Positions 47,303-56,606 of a DNA stretch of 64,000 nt are shown here, piece after piece. This DNA comes from Balnearium lithotrophicum. Lineage in GTDB: Bacteria; Aquificota; Aquificia; Desulfurobacteriales; Desulfurobacteriaceae. Made by a program: the position numbers and the translations under genes. The DNA is taken from the NCBI RefSeq assembly GCF_900182585.1, contig NZ_FXTM01000007.1, positions 1-64,000 of the forward strand. The letters are read 5' to 3'. The notes under the pieces are model-generated. The model did no database searches, was not told the origin of the DNA, and worked only from the letters and a program-made list of their open reading frames with translations. Position 1 is the stretch's first letter. Every line of letters begins with the position of its first letter.

Positions 47303-49198
47303 TTAGTCTTCAAGTGTGGAGAGATCCCCTGGATCCATTCCAAGCTCTTTGGCCTTGAGAACACGCCTCATAATTTTTCCACTTCTTGTCTTTGGAAGCT
47401 TGTCAACAAACTCAATCTCTGAAGGAACTGCGAGAGCTCCAAGTTCCATTTTAACGTGGTACTTAAGGTCATTCACAAGTTTGTCGGAGGCAGCATAGCC
47501 CTCCTTAAGAATTACAAACGCCTTAATCGTCTCTCCCTTAACAGGGTCCGGCTTTCCAATTACTGCAGCTTCTGCAACGGCAGGGTGTGAAACGAGGGCG
47601 GATTCAACCTCCATCGTTCCAATTCTATGACCGGATACGTTGATAACGTCGTCTGCCCTTCCAAGAATCATTATGTATCCGTCAGCGTCCTTAACTGCAA
47701 CGTCCCCCGCAGTGTAGCAGTTTGGAATTGTGTTCCAGTACTGTTCGTACCTCTCTGGATTCTTCCAGATTGTCCTCATCATTGAAGGCCATGGGAACTT
47801 AACAACCAAGAATCCACCTTTATCCGTCTCAACGGGATTTCCTTCCCTATCAACAACATCTGCGATTACTCCAGGAACGGGCTTTCCTGCCTTACCAGGC
47901 TTCATAGGAAGTCCGTCAATAGTTGTAATCATAACTGCACCTGTCTCTGTCTGCCACCAGGTATCAACAATTGGACACTTCTCCTTGCCGATTACCCTGT
48001 AGTACCAGAGCCAAGCCTCAGGGTTTATAGGCTCACCAACAGAACCTAAAAGCCTTAATGATGACAGGTCGTACTTATTGGGCCACTCCTCTCCGGCCCT
48101 CATGAACATTCTAATTGCAGTTGGTGCAGTGTAGAAGATGTTTACTCCGTACTTTTCAATGATTCTCCACCAGCGGCCAAAGTCTGGATAGTTTGGAGCT
48201 CCCTCAGCTATAACCTGTGTCGCTCCTGCTACTAACGGACCGTAAACTATGTAGCTGTGTCCTGTAATCCATCCCGGGTCAGCTGTACACCAGAAGATAT
48301 CGTCCTCTTTCAAGTCAAAGACGGTCTTCATTGAGTAGTAGGTACCTACCATGTATCCACCAGTTGTGTGGAGAACTCCCTTTGGCTTACCTGTAGAACC
48401 GGAAGTGTAGAGTATAAAGAGAGGGTCTTCAGCGTCCATTACTTCAGGCTCGCAGTAGTCCATGTGACCGTCAATAAACTCATAGAAGTCAATTTCCTTT
48501 TCCCCAATCAGGTCAACCTTTGGTTCAAGTCTCCTTAGAACAACAACCTTCTCAACGTAGGGTAGGTCCATAATGGCTTCGTCAACTATTCTCTTTAGGG
48601 GAATGGCCCTTCCCCTTCTGATTGTTACGTCGGCAGTAATTACAAGTTTTGCTTCAGCATCCTCAATCCTGTGCCTTAAGGCAGGAACGCTGAATCCCGC
48701 GTAAACAACGGAGTGGATTGCCCCAATGCGGGCACAGGCAAGCATTGCTGCAACCTGTTCAACAACGAGGGGCATGTAGATAACAACCCTGTCTCCCTTC
48801 TTTATTCTGGCTGCTTTAAGTGCATTTGCAAGTTTGTTGACTAACTTGTAGAGCTCCCCGTAGGTAACAACCTTTTCGTTACCTAACTCATCCTCCCAGA
48901 AGAAGGCAACCTTGTTTCTCTTTCCGTTCTTAACGTGCCTGTCCAGTGCGTTTACAGTAATGTTTGTTTTACCGCCTACAAACCACTTTGCATAGGGGTA
49001 GTTCCACTCAAGAACCTTTTCCCACTTTTTGTACCAGAAGAGTTCCTCTGCAACACTTGCCCAGAAAGCTTCTGGGTCTTCTTTAAACCTGTTGTACTCG
49101 GCCTCATAGTCCTTAACGTTGGCCCTCTCTACAAACTCCTTCGGTGGGTAGATTACATTTTCTTTCTTCAGCAGGTGGTCAAGTTTTTCCTCAGCCAT
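47303..49198 (-). CDS. acs: Acetyl-CoA synthetase (AMP-forming)
   Basis: Acs activates acetate to acetyl-CoA via acetyl-AMP. At 631 residues it has the full ANL-family motifs: [22 protein letters not shown] (P-loop, about 261-282), WWQTETGA (about 416-423), [33 protein letters not shown], and the acetylatable [13 protein letters not shown] with Lys near residue 612. The gene is last in a porin-satP-acs cluster, so the cell can take up and use external acetate. An AGGATAGG sequence precedes the ATG. Confidence 0.97.
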
Positions 49199-49222: not shown

Positions 49223-49765
49223 TTAAGATTGCATGCTCTCCTGTAGAACTGTTTTAAATCCAACGTACATTGCTGAAGCACCGCAGAGAATTCCCTCCCA
49301 TCCGGCAACTGTTTTAATAATAGCAGAGCCTGTAGCATCTCCAAGTGCTAAGAGGAAAAAGAGAATCCAGAGAGTTACAAATACAAACTGGATGTCAAAA
49401 CTGTGTTTTGTCTTAAAGAGGACAATCCAAAGTAGGAATGTGAAGATTCCCCACATTACGAGGTAGGCGACAATTGCTCCTTTCGTTGGTCCTGCCCACC
49501 ATCCCCACTTTGACATTAAGAGAAGGGCTACAAGTGTTTCCCAGAAGAGACCGTACGAGGAGAACGCCAGAGCTCCGAAAGTGTTTCCTTTCTTAAACTC
49601 CATTATTCCCGCAATAATCTGGGCAAGCCCTCCGTAGAAGATTCCCATTGCAAGAATCATAGTTCCCAGTCCTATTAGACCGGCGTTGTGAAGGTTCAGC
49701 AGAACAGTTGTCATACCAAATCCAAAGAGTCCCAACGGAGCTGGGTTTGCAATCCTTCCCTCCAT
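49223..49765 (-). CDS. satP: Acetate uptake transporter, SatP/AceTr (GPR1/FUN34/YaaH) family
   Basis: A 180-residue inner-membrane protein with six membrane segments. The N-terminal signature NPAPLGLFGFGMTTVLLNLHNAG (about 7-29) is the diagnostic NPAPLGL motif of the acetate/succinate transporter family. These proteins form hexameric channels that pass acetate. The downstream acs gene, 24 bp away, provides activation of the imported acetate, which supports the substrate call. ATG follows AAGGGGGTG. Ammonium export has been suggested for some family members but fits the context less well. Confidence 0.93.
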   Translation of the reverse strand: MEGRIANPAPLGLFGFGMTTVLLNLHNAGLIGLGTMILAMGIFYGGLAQIIAGIMEFKKGNTFGALAFSSYGLFWETLVALLLMSKWGWWAGPTKGAIVAYLVMWGIFTFLLWIVLFKTKHSFDIQFVFVTLWILFFLLALGDATGSAIIKTVAGWEGILCGASAMYVGFKTVLQESMQS

Positions 49766-49789: not shown

Positions 49790-51064
49790 TTACCAAAGGT
49801 ATATTGCTGAGGCCATTAACCTCTCACCGTGTTCAACGTTACCCTCGTAGAGGGTTTCCTGATGGTCCCACTCAAGACCAAAGGTTACATTAGGAGCAAA
49901 CTTGTATAGAACGTTTCCAAAAGCCCTCCAGTTCTTCTCGTAACTTCCTGCCTTCTTGGCATCGCTATCATCAGGGTCGTCCATACCCGTTCCAACGTTA
50001 AAGGATACTTTTTCAAAGGGTTTGAGGCTTAACTGAACAAATCCTCCCTTCGTCTCTAACTCCTCAACGTCCGTCCCATCAAGGTAGTGTGGTTTGGTAA
50101 AGACTAAAAAGTCCCTCTTTGTTAATCCCTGTCCTACGTATGCTTCTCCTTTTATTCCCATCGGGAAGAAGAGGTTAAATGGAATGTTCCACTCGGCAGC
50201 TATTAAGTAATCATCTACGTTATCCTTGTACCAAACATCAGTTTTGCCGTCGTTGTTAGTATCTTTTCCTATTTCATCACTTCCGTGTCTGTAAGCACCT
50301 CCCAATGCTAAGTAGAGAGGTTTTCCTGTTCCAAAAATGTCTCCCCTGTAGAAGACTTTAGCTCCTACCCAAGGCATTCTCATTCCAACTTTGTCCGTTG
50401 TTGCAGAGCTCTTCCAGGCCGTTCCCAAAATACCGAATCCGTTTTCAAACGTCTGGGTTACTGTAACCTGAGGAACTCTATCCCATAGGTTACCTGAACC
50501 GCCCATGCTCAAAAAGTCAAGGGTTGAGGCCATTTGAGATGCTATAGGGATGTAATCCTGACCAATCCTGATGTTTGTTCCTTGACCGTTGTTCAGGTTA
50601 ATGTAGGAAAGCCTTATTCTGAATCCTCCGTTGTCATTTCCACTTCCGCCGAGTCCGTAGAAGTCTCCTTCAACCCTTCCGGTTAAATCCCAACCGTTGA
50701 TGTTTCCACCGTTGATGATAAATCCGATTCTCGTGTCCTTCATGTTAAACGTTGTTCTGTCCTGTCTGTATCCACTTCCTTTTTTGAGGTAGGTTATAAA
50801 GGCATCCGTCCCCATGTTGTGGGTGTCGTAGATGGCATCCATTTTTATTTTTCCGTAGATTTTGATACTACTCTTTAAACCTGTCACAGACTTTGCCCCT
50901 ACCCCCTTTTGAGATTCGAGCTCTTGAAGTCTCTCCTGGAGCTTTGCCATCTGTTCCTGGAGTTTTTGGATTTGAGACTTGAGAGCTTCCACCTCATCCT
51001 GGGCAAAGGAAGGAGATACAGAAATGGCCGATACAATGAAAGCTGTGGTAAGTGCTCTTCTCAT
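49790..51064 (-). CDS. Outer-membrane porin with N-terminal coiled coil
   Basis: The signal peptide is MRRALTTAFIVSAISVSPSFAQ (cleavage near 21). A coiled coil follows (DEVEALKSQIQKLQEQMAKLQERLQELES, about 23-51), which probably spans toward the peptidoglycan. The remaining 370 residues alternate aromatic and polar positions as in a beta-barrel (IRLSYINLNNGQGTNIRIGQDYIP, WAGAKVFYRG-type strands) and end with Trp in YLW. Related porins serve phosphate, acetate or other small anions; here the adjacent SatP and Acs make acetate entry the most likely function. The operon promoter has TATAAT on the minus strand at 51154-51149. Confidence 0.85.
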   Translation of the reverse strand: MRRALTTAFIVSAISVSPSFAQDEVEALKSQIQKLQEQMAKLQERLQELESQKGVGAKSVTGLKSSIKIYGKIKMDAIYDTHNMGTDAFITYLKKGSGYRQDRTTFNMKDTRIGFIINGGNINGWDLTGRVEGDFYGLGGSGNDNGGFRIRLSYINLNNGQGTNIRIGQDYIPIASQMASTLDFLSMGGSGNLWDRVPQVTVTQTFENGFGILGTAWKSSATTDKVGMRMPWVGAKVFYRGDIFGTGKPLYLALGGAYRHGSDEIGKDTNNDGKTDVWYKDNVDDYLIAAEWNIPFNLFFPMGIKGEAYVGQGLTKRDFLVFTKPHYLDGTDVEELETKGGFVQLSLKPFEKVSFNVGTGMDDPDDSDAKKAGSYEKNWRAFGNVLYKFAPNVTFGLEWDHQETLYEGNVEHGERLMASAIYLW

Positions 51065-51115
51065 ACCTCCTCCTAAGAAGTTGTTTTTTTCTGAAACAGT
51101 GTGTTGCTATAATTG

Positions 51116-51139
51116 TAACAAAATTTTAAAATTTTGTTA
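51116..51139. repeat. 24-bp perfect A+T-rich palindrome in the porin/regulator intergenic region
   Basis: TAACAAAATTTT is followed directly by its exact reverse complement. It starts 77 bp before the regulator gene and lies just downstream of the predicted start of the porin transcript. It may be an operator for a dimeric regulator or an mRNA hairpin. Confidence 0.6.
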
Positions 51140-51148
51140 TAAGATAGG

Positions 51149-51177
51149 ATTATAAATTTATGTTAAATGAATGCAAA
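51149..51177 (-). promoter_or_regulatory. Predicted promoter of the porin-satP-acs operon
   Basis: On the minus strand TTTGCA (51177-51172) and TATAAT (51154-51149) are separated by 17 bp. Transcription would start near 51142, about 78 bp ahead of the porin ATG. A plus-strand TATAAT at 51108-51113 could serve the regulator gene. Confidence 0.55.
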
Positions 51178-51203
51178 AAACATGTTAAAAAGATGTAAAA
51201 AGG
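51160..51203. promoter_or_regulatory. Four 11-bp direct repeats, candidate PhoB/OmpR-type operator
   Basis: The units ATGTTAAATGA (51160), ATGCAAAAAAC (51171), ATGTTAAAAAG (51182) and ATGTAAAAAGG (51193) begin exactly 11 bp apart. Direct repeats of 11 bp are the binding pattern of PhoB and related winged-helix response regulators. The block overlaps the -35 of the porin promoter and ends 6 bp before the regulator start codon. Confidence 0.65.
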
Positions 51204-51209
51204 GAAAAA

Positions 51210-51863
51210 ATGAGGGTACTTCTTGTAGAGGACGATAGGAGCTTAGCTGAAGAGGTAAAAAGGGTTTTTGAGGATTATGGAATAGATGTAACTTTAGGAA
51301 CGAGCAGGGACGATATATTCGGTAAAAATGGCTACTCGTTTTTGATATTTGACCTTGCCCTATTAGGAACAAAAGGACTTGAAATCTGCCGTCAAATAAA
51401 GGAGGAAAAGGGAATTCCTATTATTGTTTTAAGCTCCATGTGTGATGTAAATACAAAGGTAAAGTGGTTTGAGACGGGAGCAGACGATTTTGTTGTCAAG
51501 CCCTTCAGTACGAGGGAGCTCTTTGCCAGAACTCTTGCCATTTATAGAAGGTACAAGGACAAACTAAAAAACAGTTTGGAATTTGAGGGAATTGTCCTAA
51601 AACTCAAGGAGGGGAAAATAATTGTAGATGGAAAGAGTGCTCCGCTGACAAAGATAGAACTTGAAATTCTTCGACTTTTAATGAAATATCCCGAGGAGGT
51701 TTTAACCAAGGAATTCCTCCTTGAAAAGGTCTGGGGAAGGAAGAAGTGGAACCCGAGAAGTCTCGATGTTTACATATACAGACTAAGAAAGAAGTTGGGA
51801 GAGAAAGGAAAACACATAAAAACCCTTACAAACGTCGGTTACATACTAACAAGAAACGTTTAA
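51210..51863 (+). CDS. OmpR/PhoB-family response regulator (orphan)
   Basis: The receiver domain (1-115) has LLVEDD, phospho-acceptor Asp48 in FLIFDLALL, and Lys97 in VVKPF; the usual Pro after the Asp motif (LPxxxG) is replaced, giving ALLGTKG. The C-terminal winged-helix DNA-binding domain (about 123-217) reads [31 protein letters not shown] and [27 protein letters not shown]. No histidine kinase is adjacent. AGGGAAAAA precedes the ATG, partly inside an 11-bp repeat array. It is divergent from the porin-satP-acs cluster, its likely target. Gene end overlaps uvrB by 4 bp (convergent). Confidence 0.92.
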
Positions 51864-53848
51864 GCTGGAAGGAGGAGTTTTCTGAGTTCCTTTATTCTGT
51901 CCCTAATTTCCGCTGCCCTTTCAAACTCCCAGTTCTTTGCAGCCTCCTTCATTTCCCTTTCAAGTCTCGCTATCTCCTCTAAAAGTTCCGACTCGTTTCT
52001 CGGAACTCTTTCTACTCCCTTCTTCCTTAGCTTTTGAAAAACTGTTACTCCTGCATCTTCAAGAATTGATGAATCAATTTTCCTCTCTGCACTCTTTGGG
52101 ACAATTCCGTGTTTTCTGTTAAACTCCTCCTGAATTCTCCTTCTCCTCTCAGTTTCCTCAATGGCCCTTCTCATTGAGGGAGTAATTCTATCTGCAAAGA
52201 GAATTACCTTTCCGTTAACGTTCCTTGCTGCCCTTCCCATTGTTTGAATAAGGGAGGTTGTTGACCTTAAGAATCCCTCCTTGTCTCCATCAAGAACGGC
52301 AACCAAAGAGACTTCAGGTAGGTCCAATCCCTCCCTTAAAAGGTTTACACCCACTAAAACGTCAAACTCTCCGGTTCGGAGCTCCCTTATTATTTCAACC
52401 CTTTCAACTGAATCAATCTCGGAGTGAAGGTACTTTGCCCTTATTCCCTTCTCAATCAGGTAGTTTGTCAGCTCTTCGGCACTCCTCTTTGTTAGAGTTG
52501 TTACTAAGACCCTTTCATCTCTCTTAATTCTCTCCCTTATTTCAGAAATCAGGTAATCTATCTGTCCTTCGGTTGGTTTAACTTCAACTTCTGGGTCTAA
52601 AAGACCTGTAGGTCTTATTATCTGCTCAACAACCCTATCCGAAACGGAGAGTTCAAACTCTCCCGGGGTTGCCGAAACGAAAATCGCCTGTGGAACCCTC
52701 TCCAAAAACTCCTCAAAGTTTAAAGGTCTGTTGTCGTAGGCTGAGGGAAGTCTGAAACCGTGCTCTATTAGGTTAAACTTCCTTGCCCTGTCTCCTCTCC
52801 ACATTGCCTTTATCTGTGGAACAGTTACGTGGGATTCGTCAATTATCACTAAGAAGTCTTCCGGAAAGTAGTCAAGGAGGGTAAATGGAGGCTCTCCGGG
52901 CTTCCTTCCGTCCAAGTGTCTTGAGTAGTTCTCAATTCCCTTGCAGTGGCCTATTTCTAAAAGGAGCTCCATGTCGTACCTTGTTCTCTGTTCAATTCTC
53001 CTTGCCTCAAGCTCCTTTCCCTGACTCAGGAAATAGTTAACTCTTTCCTCAAGCTCTTTCTCTATAGACCTAACTGCTTCAAGAATTCTTGAGTAGGGAG
53101 TTGCATAGTGGGAAGCCGGATAGACGGTGTACGAGTTAAACTCTCTCAAGACTTTCTGGTTGAAGTAGTCCAACATAACGATTGAATCAACTTCATCTCC
53201 AAAGAGCTCTATCCTTATAAAGTGGTCCTCCTGGTCTGCAGGGTATATATCTATAACGTCTCCCCTGACCTTAAAAATTCCCGGTCTTACGTCGTACTCA
53301 CTCCTTTCGTAGCCGAGTGTAACCAACTTCCTTATGACTTCGTCCCTCTCTATCTCCTCGCCTCTTTCAAACCTTAATGAGAGATTTCTGTAGTGTTCTG
53401 GAGAACCTAAACCGTATATACACGAAACAGAGGAAACAACAATTGTATCGGGACGGGTAAGGAGAGAAACCGTTGCAGAGTGTCGCATCCTGTCAATTAC
53501 AGGGTTTATCGAGCAGTCCTTCTCAATGTATACGTCCCTACTTGGAATGTAGGCTTCAGGCTGGTAGTAGTCGTAGTAGCTTATGAAGTATTCAATAGCA
53601 TTGTTTGGAAAGAAGTTCTTCAGTTCGTGGTAGAGCTGTGCAGCAAGGACTTTGTTGTGGGAAATAACCAGTGTAGGCTTTTGAACTCTCTCAATAACCT
53701 TTGCTATTGTGAATGTTTTACCGCTTCCAGTTATTCCTAAAAGGGTCTGAAATCTGAGTCCCTTCTCTATACCCTCTGAGAGTTCTCTAATTGCCTTAGG
53801 CTGGTCACCTTTAGGCTCAAAAGGGGAGACTACTTTAAACCTTCTCAA
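51860..53848 (-). CDS. uvrB: Excinuclease ABC subunit B
   Basis: UvrB is the helicase-like damage-verifying subunit of nucleotide excision repair. Walker A is in [12 protein letters not shown]; the beta-hairpin segment [12 protein letters not shown], the helicase motif DESH ([13 protein letters not shown]) and [26 protein letters not shown] are all present. The C-terminal UVR domain for UvrC contact ends in [19 protein letters not shown] at 53848 is taken as start (662 residues, normal for UvrB) rather than the far upstream codon at 53935, which would run into the divergent TPR gene. SD support is modest (AGGA). Confidence 0.93.
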
Positions 53849-53906
53849 GCTTCCTATCCTATAATTAGGTTTTCCGATTAATTTAGACCCTGTTTGGAGA
53901 TTTGGA

Positions 53907-56606
53907 ATGTTGAGGAGAGCTCTCCTGATTGCCACTTTAACCCTTTCAACAGCCCTTGCTTCAGACCTTAATCTTGGAGTGAAGCTCTACAGTGATGGAA
54001 TGTACTCATTGGCTGCAAAAACCTTTAGCGAGAACTTAGATTCCCTGAACGATAAAAATTTCAAAAAGTACTACAGATACATTTACCTATCATTTTTAAA
54101 ATCACAGGATTACAAGGACTTAAAAAGGTTTCTTTCATTCTGGGAAAGGAACTTTCCGGAGTTTTCAAAGGGAGAGCTCCTTGCTCTCAAGTTTATCCTT
54201 TCACTAAAAAAGGGAGTTCCTGTTGAGAAAGCATTTCCAGAGAAGGATTTACTATCAATGTCCATAGATAATAAGGTTTCATTCTTTAAAGTCCTCTCTA
54301 AATCAGACCTACCCTCTAACGCTATCTATTTCATCTTGTTAAGGTCTGGAAGGAACCTTGAACTGAAGGGAGCCCTCAGGGACAGCGGATTTTTGGAGAG
54401 AGCTCTGAAAAGAGCAAGTAAGGAAAACGACTACAAGCTCATAGATTTGATATTTGACACCTACGGGAGATGGTTTAAGGGTAAGGAAGAGGGAGTTCAG
54501 TACGTCAGGTACCTTGAGAGAAAGAGGAGGTTTTCGGAGGCCTTAGTTGAAGCTCAAAAACTCTACAAGAAGTACCCCGGCGATAGAACAAGGTTGGAGC
54601 TTGCCAGAGCTTACTACCTCAACAAAAAGTACAGTGAGGCAGCTAAACTATTAAAGAATCCCAAAAGTACAGAGGAAAAGTACCTCCTTGCCTGGACCCT
54701 TTACAGGTTAGGAAAAGTAGGTGAGATTCCAAAGGTAATAGGACTGAACATTTCCAAACCTAAAGTCCCTGAGAAATTAAAAGCTCTCTTAGACTTCTAC
54801 TCGGCAGAGTTCGACCTTGATACTTTGAAGAAGTTCTATCCGGAGCTCTACACAAAAGCTCTCATTTTTTCCTTTTCCGATGAAATTCCTGAAGTCGGCT
54901 CAAGTGATGACTTAGGATACATCTACTACGAAAGGGGACTCTACAAAAGCTCAGAGGAAGAGTTAAAGAGGGCAGTTCAGAGTCCATCAAATGACCTTTC
55001 AACTGCAAGAACCTTGTACCTACTGGGAAAAATAGGAACGATAAACAGTGATGTAGGAAGTGTTGTCTATAGCCAACTGATGGGAAGTTTCCAGAATACT
55101 CCCTACTACAGGGCTTCCCTCTTAGATGCGGCTAAGGTTTACCTCATTTCTGGAAGCCCAAACGTCTCAATTAAGCTCCTCGAGTATGCCTACAAGGAGG
55201 AGGGAATTAGAACTCCAGAACTCCTCAAACTCTTAGGAATCTCGTACTTTAACGTTGGAAACTATAAAAGGGCAAAGGAGTTTCTAAAAAGGGTTCCTGA
55301 CGGTGATACTCTAACGCTTTTAGCTATCTGCCAGTACAAGTTGGGAAGTAAAAAGGAAGCCTACAGAACACTAAAGAAGGAAATTAAGAAGTACTCCATT
55401 TTTCCCGAGGTAAACGGTGGAAGATTAATTTACCTATCCAAAGTATTAGGAAAGGAGAGAGAACTTACAAAGCTTCCACTTATTTCCCCACTGACAAAAA
55501 CTATGGCTGCATTTGTATCTAAGAACATAAACTATGCTGAAAAGATATTTAACACCCTTCCCCACAGGGAAAAAACAGCACTTGCTCTCTATCTAACAGA
55601 AAGTTACGAGAAGAAAAAACCCCAAAAGAGCATCTTTTATTTAACCTACCTGTTCAATACAGCTTCAAATGAGGAGTTAGAGAGGTTTTCAAAACAGTAC
55701 ATGAACTATCTTTCGTACAGGAGTAAAAACTTTGAGGCGCTAATTTTCAACGACCCCTACTTTATAGCTTACAACCCGGAAAACGTTGGAGCCGATGCTC
55801 TGACTCTCATATCTAAGGCGAGGGATTACGAAAGCAACGGAGAATATGGAAAGGCCTACGGTATCTTAAAGCTAACTTTAGAAAAGGTAAATTCCCCTAA
55901 GCTAAAAGAACAGATAGCCGAAAGGTTGGTTGAAATAGACCTTAAGCAGAAAAACTACAGGAGAGCTCTGAAGGACATTTCTCTCATTCAGGACTCTGAT
56001 GTAAAAAACTACCTGCTGTTCAGGACCTACCTCTCCCAAGGGAAACTAATAGATGCATACACCGCAGCCCAGAGCGTAAAGGATATAACAAAAATTCCCG
56101 AAAAAGAGAGGGGATACTTCTTAGGAAAGCTTGCTCACTACTACAAGTTGACCGGAAACAAGAATAGAGCTTTAGAAATTTCAAGGGAACTCACCAAATA
56201 CTTAAGCAGCGTTAACTACGATGATTTAGTTAGCTTGGGGATACTGGCACAGGAAAGTGGAGACCTTGAACTTGCCGAAAAGCTAATAGGAGAAGCTGTT
56301 AAAAGAGCAAAGAAGAGGGAGGAAAGAGCAGAATCTCTCTTCTGGAGGGCATCAATTGAAGCTCAAAGGGGGAACGTTGACGGAGCTCTCATAGACTACA
56401 TGAAGATAGCTTACGAGATAAAGGCTGAACCTTGGAGTTCAACTGCTCTCTACAGGGCTGCTCAACTTTTAGAGAAAAAGGGAGATTACAGACAGGCAGC
56501 AAGACTCTACAAGAGGGTCTCTGAGATGAAGAAGGGAACAAAGGAGGGAAAAGAGGCAGAGGAAAGGTTAAAATCTCTCCTGAAAAGATTGAAGAAGGAG
56601 GAGTAA
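53907..56606 (+). CDS. Large TPR-repeat envelope protein
   Basis: An 899-residue protein with signal peptide [17 protein letters not shown] and a periplasmic helical body of many TPR-like repeats. Examples are [64 protein letters not shown] and [23 protein letters not shown]. No enzymatic motif is seen. It may be an envelope scaffold, perhaps of the BamD/YbgF kind, or part of a secretion or polysaccharide system. ATG at 53907 follows TTTGGAGATTTGGA. It shares a single base with the DUF507 gene. Confidence 0.75.

Follow-up and report, generated by a model that had tools for sequence, protein, structure and literature searches.

Direct repeats spaced about 11 bp apart are a hallmark of the sites bound by response regulators (RRs) of the OmpR/PhoB family (PMC4832192). 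The PhoB boxes of E. coli read CTGTCAT(A/T)4CTGTCAT, and the PhoP sites of E. coli and Salmonella read TGTTTA-N5-TGTTTA (PMC4832192). The ArcA sites of E. coli consist of two to five repeats with an 11-bp centre-to-centre distance, located before TCA-cycle genes, nuo and acs-yjcH-actP (Park et al. 2013, PMC3798270). The window analyzed here, meaning the whole stretch of DNA at its full length of 64 kb, carries an array of this kind between an RR gene and genes for acetate uptake, and the premise of its preliminary description, that relatives of PhoB and OmpR bind 11-bp direct repeats, agrees with these reports (PMC4832192, PMC3798270). An OmpR/PhoB operator is recognized by at least two direct repeats about 11 bp apart, and four are present at this locus.

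The candidate operator lies on the plus strand at 51160-51203, its four 11-bp direct repeats starting at 51160 (ATGTTAAATGA), 51171 (ATGCAAAAAAC), 51182 (ATGTTAAAAAG) and 51193 (ATGTAAAAAGG), exactly at the positions and spacing first described. The unit is TGTWAAANNNN, or TTTWACA-N4 when read on the minus strand, and Tandem Repeats Finder picked up the array as 11- and 22-bp periods. The observed array has a single mismatch to four TGTWAA at 11-bp spacing, and the 145-bp intergenic region, shuffled 20,000 times with its dinucleotides preserved, never produced such an array with at most one mismatch. When self-similarity was scored free of any pattern, the lag-11 value was matched by 1 of 5,000 shuffles; with any lag of 8-15 bp allowed it was matched by 48 of 3,000, so that the array of this one genome is by itself only moderately convincing, suggestive and not proof. 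Its own overlapping registers aside, it is the sole four-unit array with three or fewer mismatches in the 64-kb window.

Conservation was followed in 22 genomes of the Desulfurobacteriaceae, which are thermophilic vent bacteria, nine with a close ortholog of the adjacent regulator (the acetate RR) and 13 without. These orthologs share 66-76% identity with the window protein, other RRs reach at most about 50%, and a contig scan with the RR protein returned only two orthologs and distant receivers. A three- to four-unit array phased at 11 bp is found directly before the RR start in all nine RR genomes, and its last unit, TGTAAA, is invariant across them; the spacing, on whose persistence in close relatives the preliminary description had staked its reading, is kept in nine of nine. 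Over the 60 bp upstream of the RR start in these genomes, self-identity is 0.52 at lag 11 and 0.51 at lag 22, against 0.22-0.41 at the other lags from 4 to 25. As cross-genome conservation settles what single-sequence statistics could not, the four-repeat array between the regulator and the acetate genes is confirmed as real. In two close relatives (G005 and G001) only three units are clear and the fourth has decayed, which weighs against the explanation preferred below. That the array ends right in front of the regulator's start codon was also stated correctly: 7-16 bp separate the beginning of the final TGTAAA from the RR start, and this unit overlaps the ribosome-binding region.

The acetate RR is a 217-aa OmpR/PhoB-family protein (51210-51863, plus strand) with no neighboring kinase. 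Its receiver (Pfam PF00072, 65.6 bits) and winged-helix Trans_reg_C domain (PF00486, 74.2 bits) both score above cut-off; RegX3, DrrD and MtrA are its closest relatives in the PDB, and its AlphaFold model (mean pLDDT 79.8, the last 14 residues being poor) matches KdpE, DrrB and VanR. Identity with PhoB itself was rejected, the protein scoring 144.1 bits against the TIGR02154 equivalog cut-off of 296.2. The phosphorylation pocket (E7, D8, D9, D48, S76 and K97) is invariant in the nine orthologs. In the receiver, the Pro of the DxxLP motif after D48 is replaced and several loop residues are lost, a second point that weighs against the preferred explanation. The statement that a kinase is absent holds for the neighborhood, as no kinase gene lies next to the RR in the window or in either of the two relatives with neighboring ORFs listed, but not for the genome, where a conserved orphan PAS-type histidine kinase (G000:C5) is encoded elsewhere and occurs in 21 of the 22 family genomes.

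Divergent from the array, on the minus strand, the operon begins with an outer-membrane porin gene (49790-51064; a weak DcaP match of 29.1 bits, cut-off 27), followed by satP (49223-49765), which encodes an acetate uptake transporter of the GPR1/FUN34/yaaH type (NCBIfam AceTr_1 NF038013, 230.6 bits, cut-off 50), and acs (47303-49198), which encodes an AMP-forming acetate–CoA ligase (TIGR02188, 905 bits, cut-off 725). The order porin-satP-acs is found in G000, G001, G013, G019 and G021; the operon is satP-acs in G014, and the contig of G005 ends inside the porin gene. G015 and G017 lack satP, and there a DUF485-like protein, an ActP-type cation/acetate symporter (764.5 bits, NF006903 cut-off 750), a CBS/cyclic-nucleotide protein and an exonuclease are encoded upstream of acs, as is a porin. 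The regulator, the array and acs have been retained in these two genera while the transporter was exchanged for a non-homologous one with the same substrate. Porin, satP or actP genes diverge from the array in all nine RR genomes, and no porin or satP ortholog occurs in the 13 genomes that lack the acetate RR; satP occurs in six of the 22 genomes and acs in 20, with or without the RR.

The gene on the other side of the regulator, uvrB (51860-53935, minus strand), adjoins acs in relatives without the module and marks the insertion point of the RR-array-porin-satP block, which sits exactly between uvrB and acs in the RR genomes. In four genomes without the RR (G002, G003, G007 and G018), acs comes directly after uvrB and no array was found. 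The acetate module appears to have been inserted between the two genes (L037-L044 compared with L136-L139), and its history of gain and loss could date active acetate uptake. Acetate assimilation in T. ammonificans, which is G018, is only passive, with no symporter (PMC12743299).

Candidate promoters can be placed on both strands around the array. For the RR gene, GTAACA-17-TATAAG (51115-51143, plus strand) is proposed from its consensus match and conservation, matches of the form GTAACA or TTAACA-17-TATACA-like (TNNAACA-17-TATACA/TATAAA) being retained in eight of the nine RR genomes. For the porin operon, TTAACA of the proximal unit (51166-51161) and TATAAC (51141-51136), separated by 19 nt, form a candidate promoter (51136-51166, minus strand); TATAAG or TATAAC is retained 19 nt from the proximal TTAACA in seven of the nine. 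The porin promoter noted earlier, TTTGCA-17-TATAAT (51149-51177, minus strand), is present, gives the best consensus match and shares its geometry with the family's nuoA arrays, but no other genome keeps its -10 well, the ortholog hexamers at that position having decayed to TCTAAT, CCTAAT, TCAAAT and ACGAAT; the precise porin promoter and its -10 are uncertain. Given the plus-strand candidate promoter, the array would fall within the transcribed leader of the RR gene. As the RR and porin -10 elements overlap, the divergent promoters should exclude each other, and because the array would lie downstream of the conserved candidate RR promoter, autorepression is the likeliest sense in which the regulator could control itself.

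A 22-bp perfect palindrome, AACAAAATTTTAAAATTTTGTT (51117-51138), overlaps both candidate promoters; it is palindromic in this genome only, its left half being conserved. Weaker 11-bp-phased units of opposite orientation (TTTTAAAA, TGTTAAAA, TGGCAACA and TGTAAAA) are seen at L043:8557-8595 (minus strand) and at 51065-51138 of the window, where they overlap the RR promoter -35 and the porin leader; this set is strongest in G015. The block TGTTGC..TTGTAACAAAATTTTAAAA was considered as a second, opposite array and not adopted, as the -35 region of the RR promoter explains it better, with a weak site being possible.

Arrays of the same class are present across the family, where they also stand in front of most CO2-fixation genes, as determined by genome-wide pattern searches. 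A search for three units of TGTWAA-N5 with at most one mismatch gave about 104 matches in the family compared to 3 for the reversed pattern, and when the gaps were left free at 2-8 bases (49 combinations), 56 of 69 exact three-unit matches had 11/11-bp spacing, the reversed control giving 1. Among 136 genomes of the phylum, exact matches are concentrated in two families of the order, Desulfurobacteriaceae and its sister (G134, G135), and the other Aquificota families gave single matches at control level only. The genome of another family (G088:C101) contains argF with an array nearly identical to that of G134:C58, probably an assembly contamination.

The search for further arrays that had been suggested thus yielded about 84 in the family, and about 80 of these 84 distinct sites precede genes of carbon or electron metabolism: nuo (19), sucC (15), acn (11, often shared with divergent rtcB), aclB (7, and two more with short flanks), the acetate RR (7 at this threshold), frdA (6), nfnA/gltB (6), idh (2), mdh (2), actP-like genes (2) and acs (1). 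Each gene has its arrays at a nearly constant distance and orientation, with sucC arrays at 33-35 bp on the same strand in 15 of 15 cases, aclB arrays at 58-59 bp (69 in one) on the same strand, and nuoA and acn arrays on the opposite strand at about 32-49 bp and 41-65 bp, respectively. In same-strand arrays the last unit, TGTTAAAAT or TGTAAAAT, may double as an extended -10, and in nuoA arrays a distance of 17 bp separates the penultimate unit, TTTACA, from a TAATAT-like -10.

Two observations concern genus g3. An operon of a universal-stress-protein gene and an ActP-like symporter gene (G010, G011; L111, L112) has a four-unit array 17 bp upstream, so in this genus the array regulon may include acetate-type transport although the acetate RR is absent. 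Separately, the gene for a C10-type PhoB-like RR (G009:C2:88381; G010:C18:10066; G011:C1:568417; G012:C62:2641) is closely preceded by three TGTTAAG-like repeats spaced 11/12 bp, which form a candidate autoregulatory site for a different RR.

The array at 51160-51203 is probably an operator for an RR of the OmpR/PhoB type, most simply the adjacent one, which would activate acetate uptake and damp its own gene. RR dimers bound in tandem would fill the four TTTAACA-like units along a single helical face, and the bound units, being beside or over the weak -35 of the porin-satP-acs promoter, would recruit RNA polymerase and thereby switch on acetate entry and activation. Since the leader of the RR transcript and its ribosome-binding region would likewise lie under the bound units, binding should damp the RR gene; the acetate RR would act as an activator with negative autoregulation at mutually exclusive divergent promoters. 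The conditional parts of this account, which is built on genome comparison, are the binder, the direction of control and the signal; what is observed is the conserved array, the acetate genes inherited along with it, the exchange of transporter, and the sister arrays with their targets. The original proposal of one regulator for acetate uptake and itself is borne out in that array and uptake genes occur together in nine of nine genomes, and has to be modified in that "itself" likely means autorepression and the array class is family-wide.

Because arrays of this class also occur away from acetate genes, another conserved orphan RR may bind this one too. This C17 RR (G000:C17:40017-40685) is likewise of the OmpR/PhoB type, is found in 20 of the 22 family genomes with no adjacent kinase, and scores 243.0 bits against the PhoB equivalog TIGR02154, below the cut-off of 296.2. 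In its recognition helix and wing the acetate RR is almost the same as the C17 RR (RTVDVYISRLRKKLG-KGKYLKTL) and unlike the C10 RR, and in a tree the acetate RRs make up a single well-supported clade, which joins the C17 RRs (support 97/97) and leaves the C10 RRs outside. The C17 RR is present in every acetate RR genome except G005, so either regulator could bind the acetate array, and cross-binding between the two is likely.

The strongest rival, a possible but clearly less probable one, holds that the C17 RR binds the acetate array and that the neighboring acetate RR does not, or not mainly, and acts elsewhere or through hetero-regulation. Besides the wide occurrence of the C17 RR and its nearly identical recognition helix, this rival can account for the TGTWAA-type arrays in genomes without the acetate RR, for an array that precedes a C17-type RR gene by about 45 bp in the sister family (G134), and for genus g3, which lacks the acetate RR and has the four-unit array at the actP-like operon and a three-unit array at one acs. 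No array was found upstream of the C17 RR gene within Desulfurobacteriaceae, where the gene closely follows cdd. The rival is at odds with the confinement of acetate-type arrays to the side of the acetate RR, at its start codon as in autoregulated sites, and with the composition of these arrays, whose CGTTAAA third unit and G/C in the spacers differ from the A/T-rich arrays of the reductive TCA (rTCA) cycle; G005 has an acetate array and no detected C17 RR, a weak argument in a genome 87% complete. Given the shared helix, the common clade and the G134 array, the C17 RR is favored for the metabolic arrays, of which it is likely the global regulator, and the acetate RR for its own array. The acetate RR would be a divergent paralog of the C17-type RR, the latter probably binding the rTCA, nuo and nfn arrays, and the acetate circuit would be a specialized branch of a lineage-wide carbon/redox regulon.

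It is unlikely that the array serves the RR gene only, in autoregulation, with the divergent acetate operon as a passive neighbor. The last unit is indeed 7-16 bp from the RR start, compared to 76-97 bp between the array and the start of porin or satP, yet the neighbors are always acetate uptake genes, even where the transporter is non-homologous, and porin and satP orthologs were not found without the RR and array among the 22 genomes. Still less probable is a set of constrained, overlapping divergent sigma-70 promoters and a ribosome-binding site in AT-rich DNA, with the repeats being incidental. The intergenic GC of 23%, the coincidence of the hexamers TTTACA/TTAACA with units, the G residues before the last unit that can serve as a Shine-Dalgarno sequence and the any-lag result given above would all suit such an arrangement; it leaves unexplained the lag-11 and lag-22 peaks in nine genomes, the genome-wide dominance of 11/11 spacing with a reversed control near zero, and the arrays before nuo and acn genes in T. 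ammonificans (G018), the GC content of which is 52%. Least probable of all, a leader-RNA element of the RR messenger under TRAP- or CsrA-type control would suit an array in the 5' leader that overlaps the ribosome-binding region, should the upstream plus-strand promoter be right, and is rejected because the units occur before other genes on either strand, 17-100 bp from the start codon, in other orientations and positions, as DNA sites.

The sister arrays can be set beside expression data from D. thermolithotrophum. In strain BSA-T (G008), arrays are located before sucC (sucCD-oor), between both frdA genes, and before acn, nuoA and nfnA, with acn-idh-acl forming one operon. At low H2, strain HR11 has increased levels of both Frd, Suc, Ogor, Acl, Idh and Acn and decreased NuoGFE, with Mdh, Fum I and II and Por unchanged (PMC12724263); mdh, fum and por are without arrays in this species. 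The array-bearing rTCA operons are the responsive ones at low H2, with expression taken from HR11 and arrays read in BSA-T. The Nuo changes concern nuoGFE, which is sited in another operon than the arrayed nuoA, and at the search threshold no array was found at the Hyd and Ech hydrogenase operons, which are the most responsive, or at acs. As acs is increased 7.8-fold at low H2 (PMC12724263) though it is without an array, it must also be under other control, which weighs against the preferred explanation of the acetate array. The BSA-T genome (L223, L224) also carries a 370-384-aa ORF (LNTTRRCPPMKQLKRFKG...) in three or more near-identical copies, probably a mobile element.

A broader model, offered tentatively and with somewhat less than an even chance of being right, is an ArcA-like regulon of the Desulfurobacteriales in which the C17 RR, perhaps with the C5 kinase, acts on 11-bp TGTWAA arrays and tunes rTCA, nuo and nfn genes to H2/redox state, and in which a duplicated RR took the operator code to acetate uptake, creating a switch between autotrophy and mixotrophy. 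Control of the rTCA cycle in CO2-fixing autotrophs is largely obscure, and the arrays provide a testable DNA element at those operons; with a shortlist of two candidate regulators and one candidate kinase, H2 control in such autotrophs becomes directly testable. A natural experiment is offered by the acetate module, which nine genomes have gained and T. ammonificans lacks. No description of the arrays was found in the searched literature, most subscription journals being outside its coverage, and the same searched literature held no description of a lineage-wide array regulon over the rTCA cycle with a duplicated acetate regulator.

In comparing the locus to known systems, PhoB and PhoP share tandem direct repeats about one helical turn apart, which in their case are bound head-to-tail by winged-helix RR dimers (PMC4832192). 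Their targets are phosphate or Mg genes, whereas those seen here are acetate uptake and rTCA genes, and, relative to the porin gene, TGT is read on the other strand than in E. coli PhoB boxes, which weighs against the preferred explanation. HP1043 (HsrA) of H. pylori is likewise an orphan OmpR-family RR, binding TTTAAG-N5-TTTAAG repeats 11 bp apart (PMC5253667). The HP1043 receiver is not phosphorylatable, whereas the acetate RR retains the acidic pocket, the phospho-acceptor Asp and the Lys. CrbR is a LuxR/NarL-type RR with a symporter-linked hybrid kinase. The acetate RR differs from it in having a Trans_reg_C output domain of the OmpR/PhoB type and no adjoining kinase. What it would share with CrbS/CrbR (MxtR/ErdR) of Vibrio and Pseudomonas is the devotion of an RR to acetate activation genes (PMC5436829, PMC5715377).

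The closest likeness in target genes and site architecture is to ArcA, as 11-bp direct-repeat sites are found before TCA, nuo and acetate genes here too. The array regulon would work like that of ArcA, and orthology to ArcA is not supported: in the tree ArcA falls with OmpR, apart from the acetate/C17 group, with long branches and with approximate E. coli sequences. Such approximate sequences of E. coli PhoB, ArcA and OmpR were the references in the tree and in the comparison of recognition helices. ArcA mostly represses oxidative carbon metabolism under the hybrid kinase ArcB, whereas the targets here belong to the reductive TCA cycle of an obligate H2-oxidizing autotroph lineage and the candidate RRs have no neighboring kinase. 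Taken alone, the array is one more example of a known sort of operator; its family-wide setting points to an undescribed circuit for the control of carbon metabolism.
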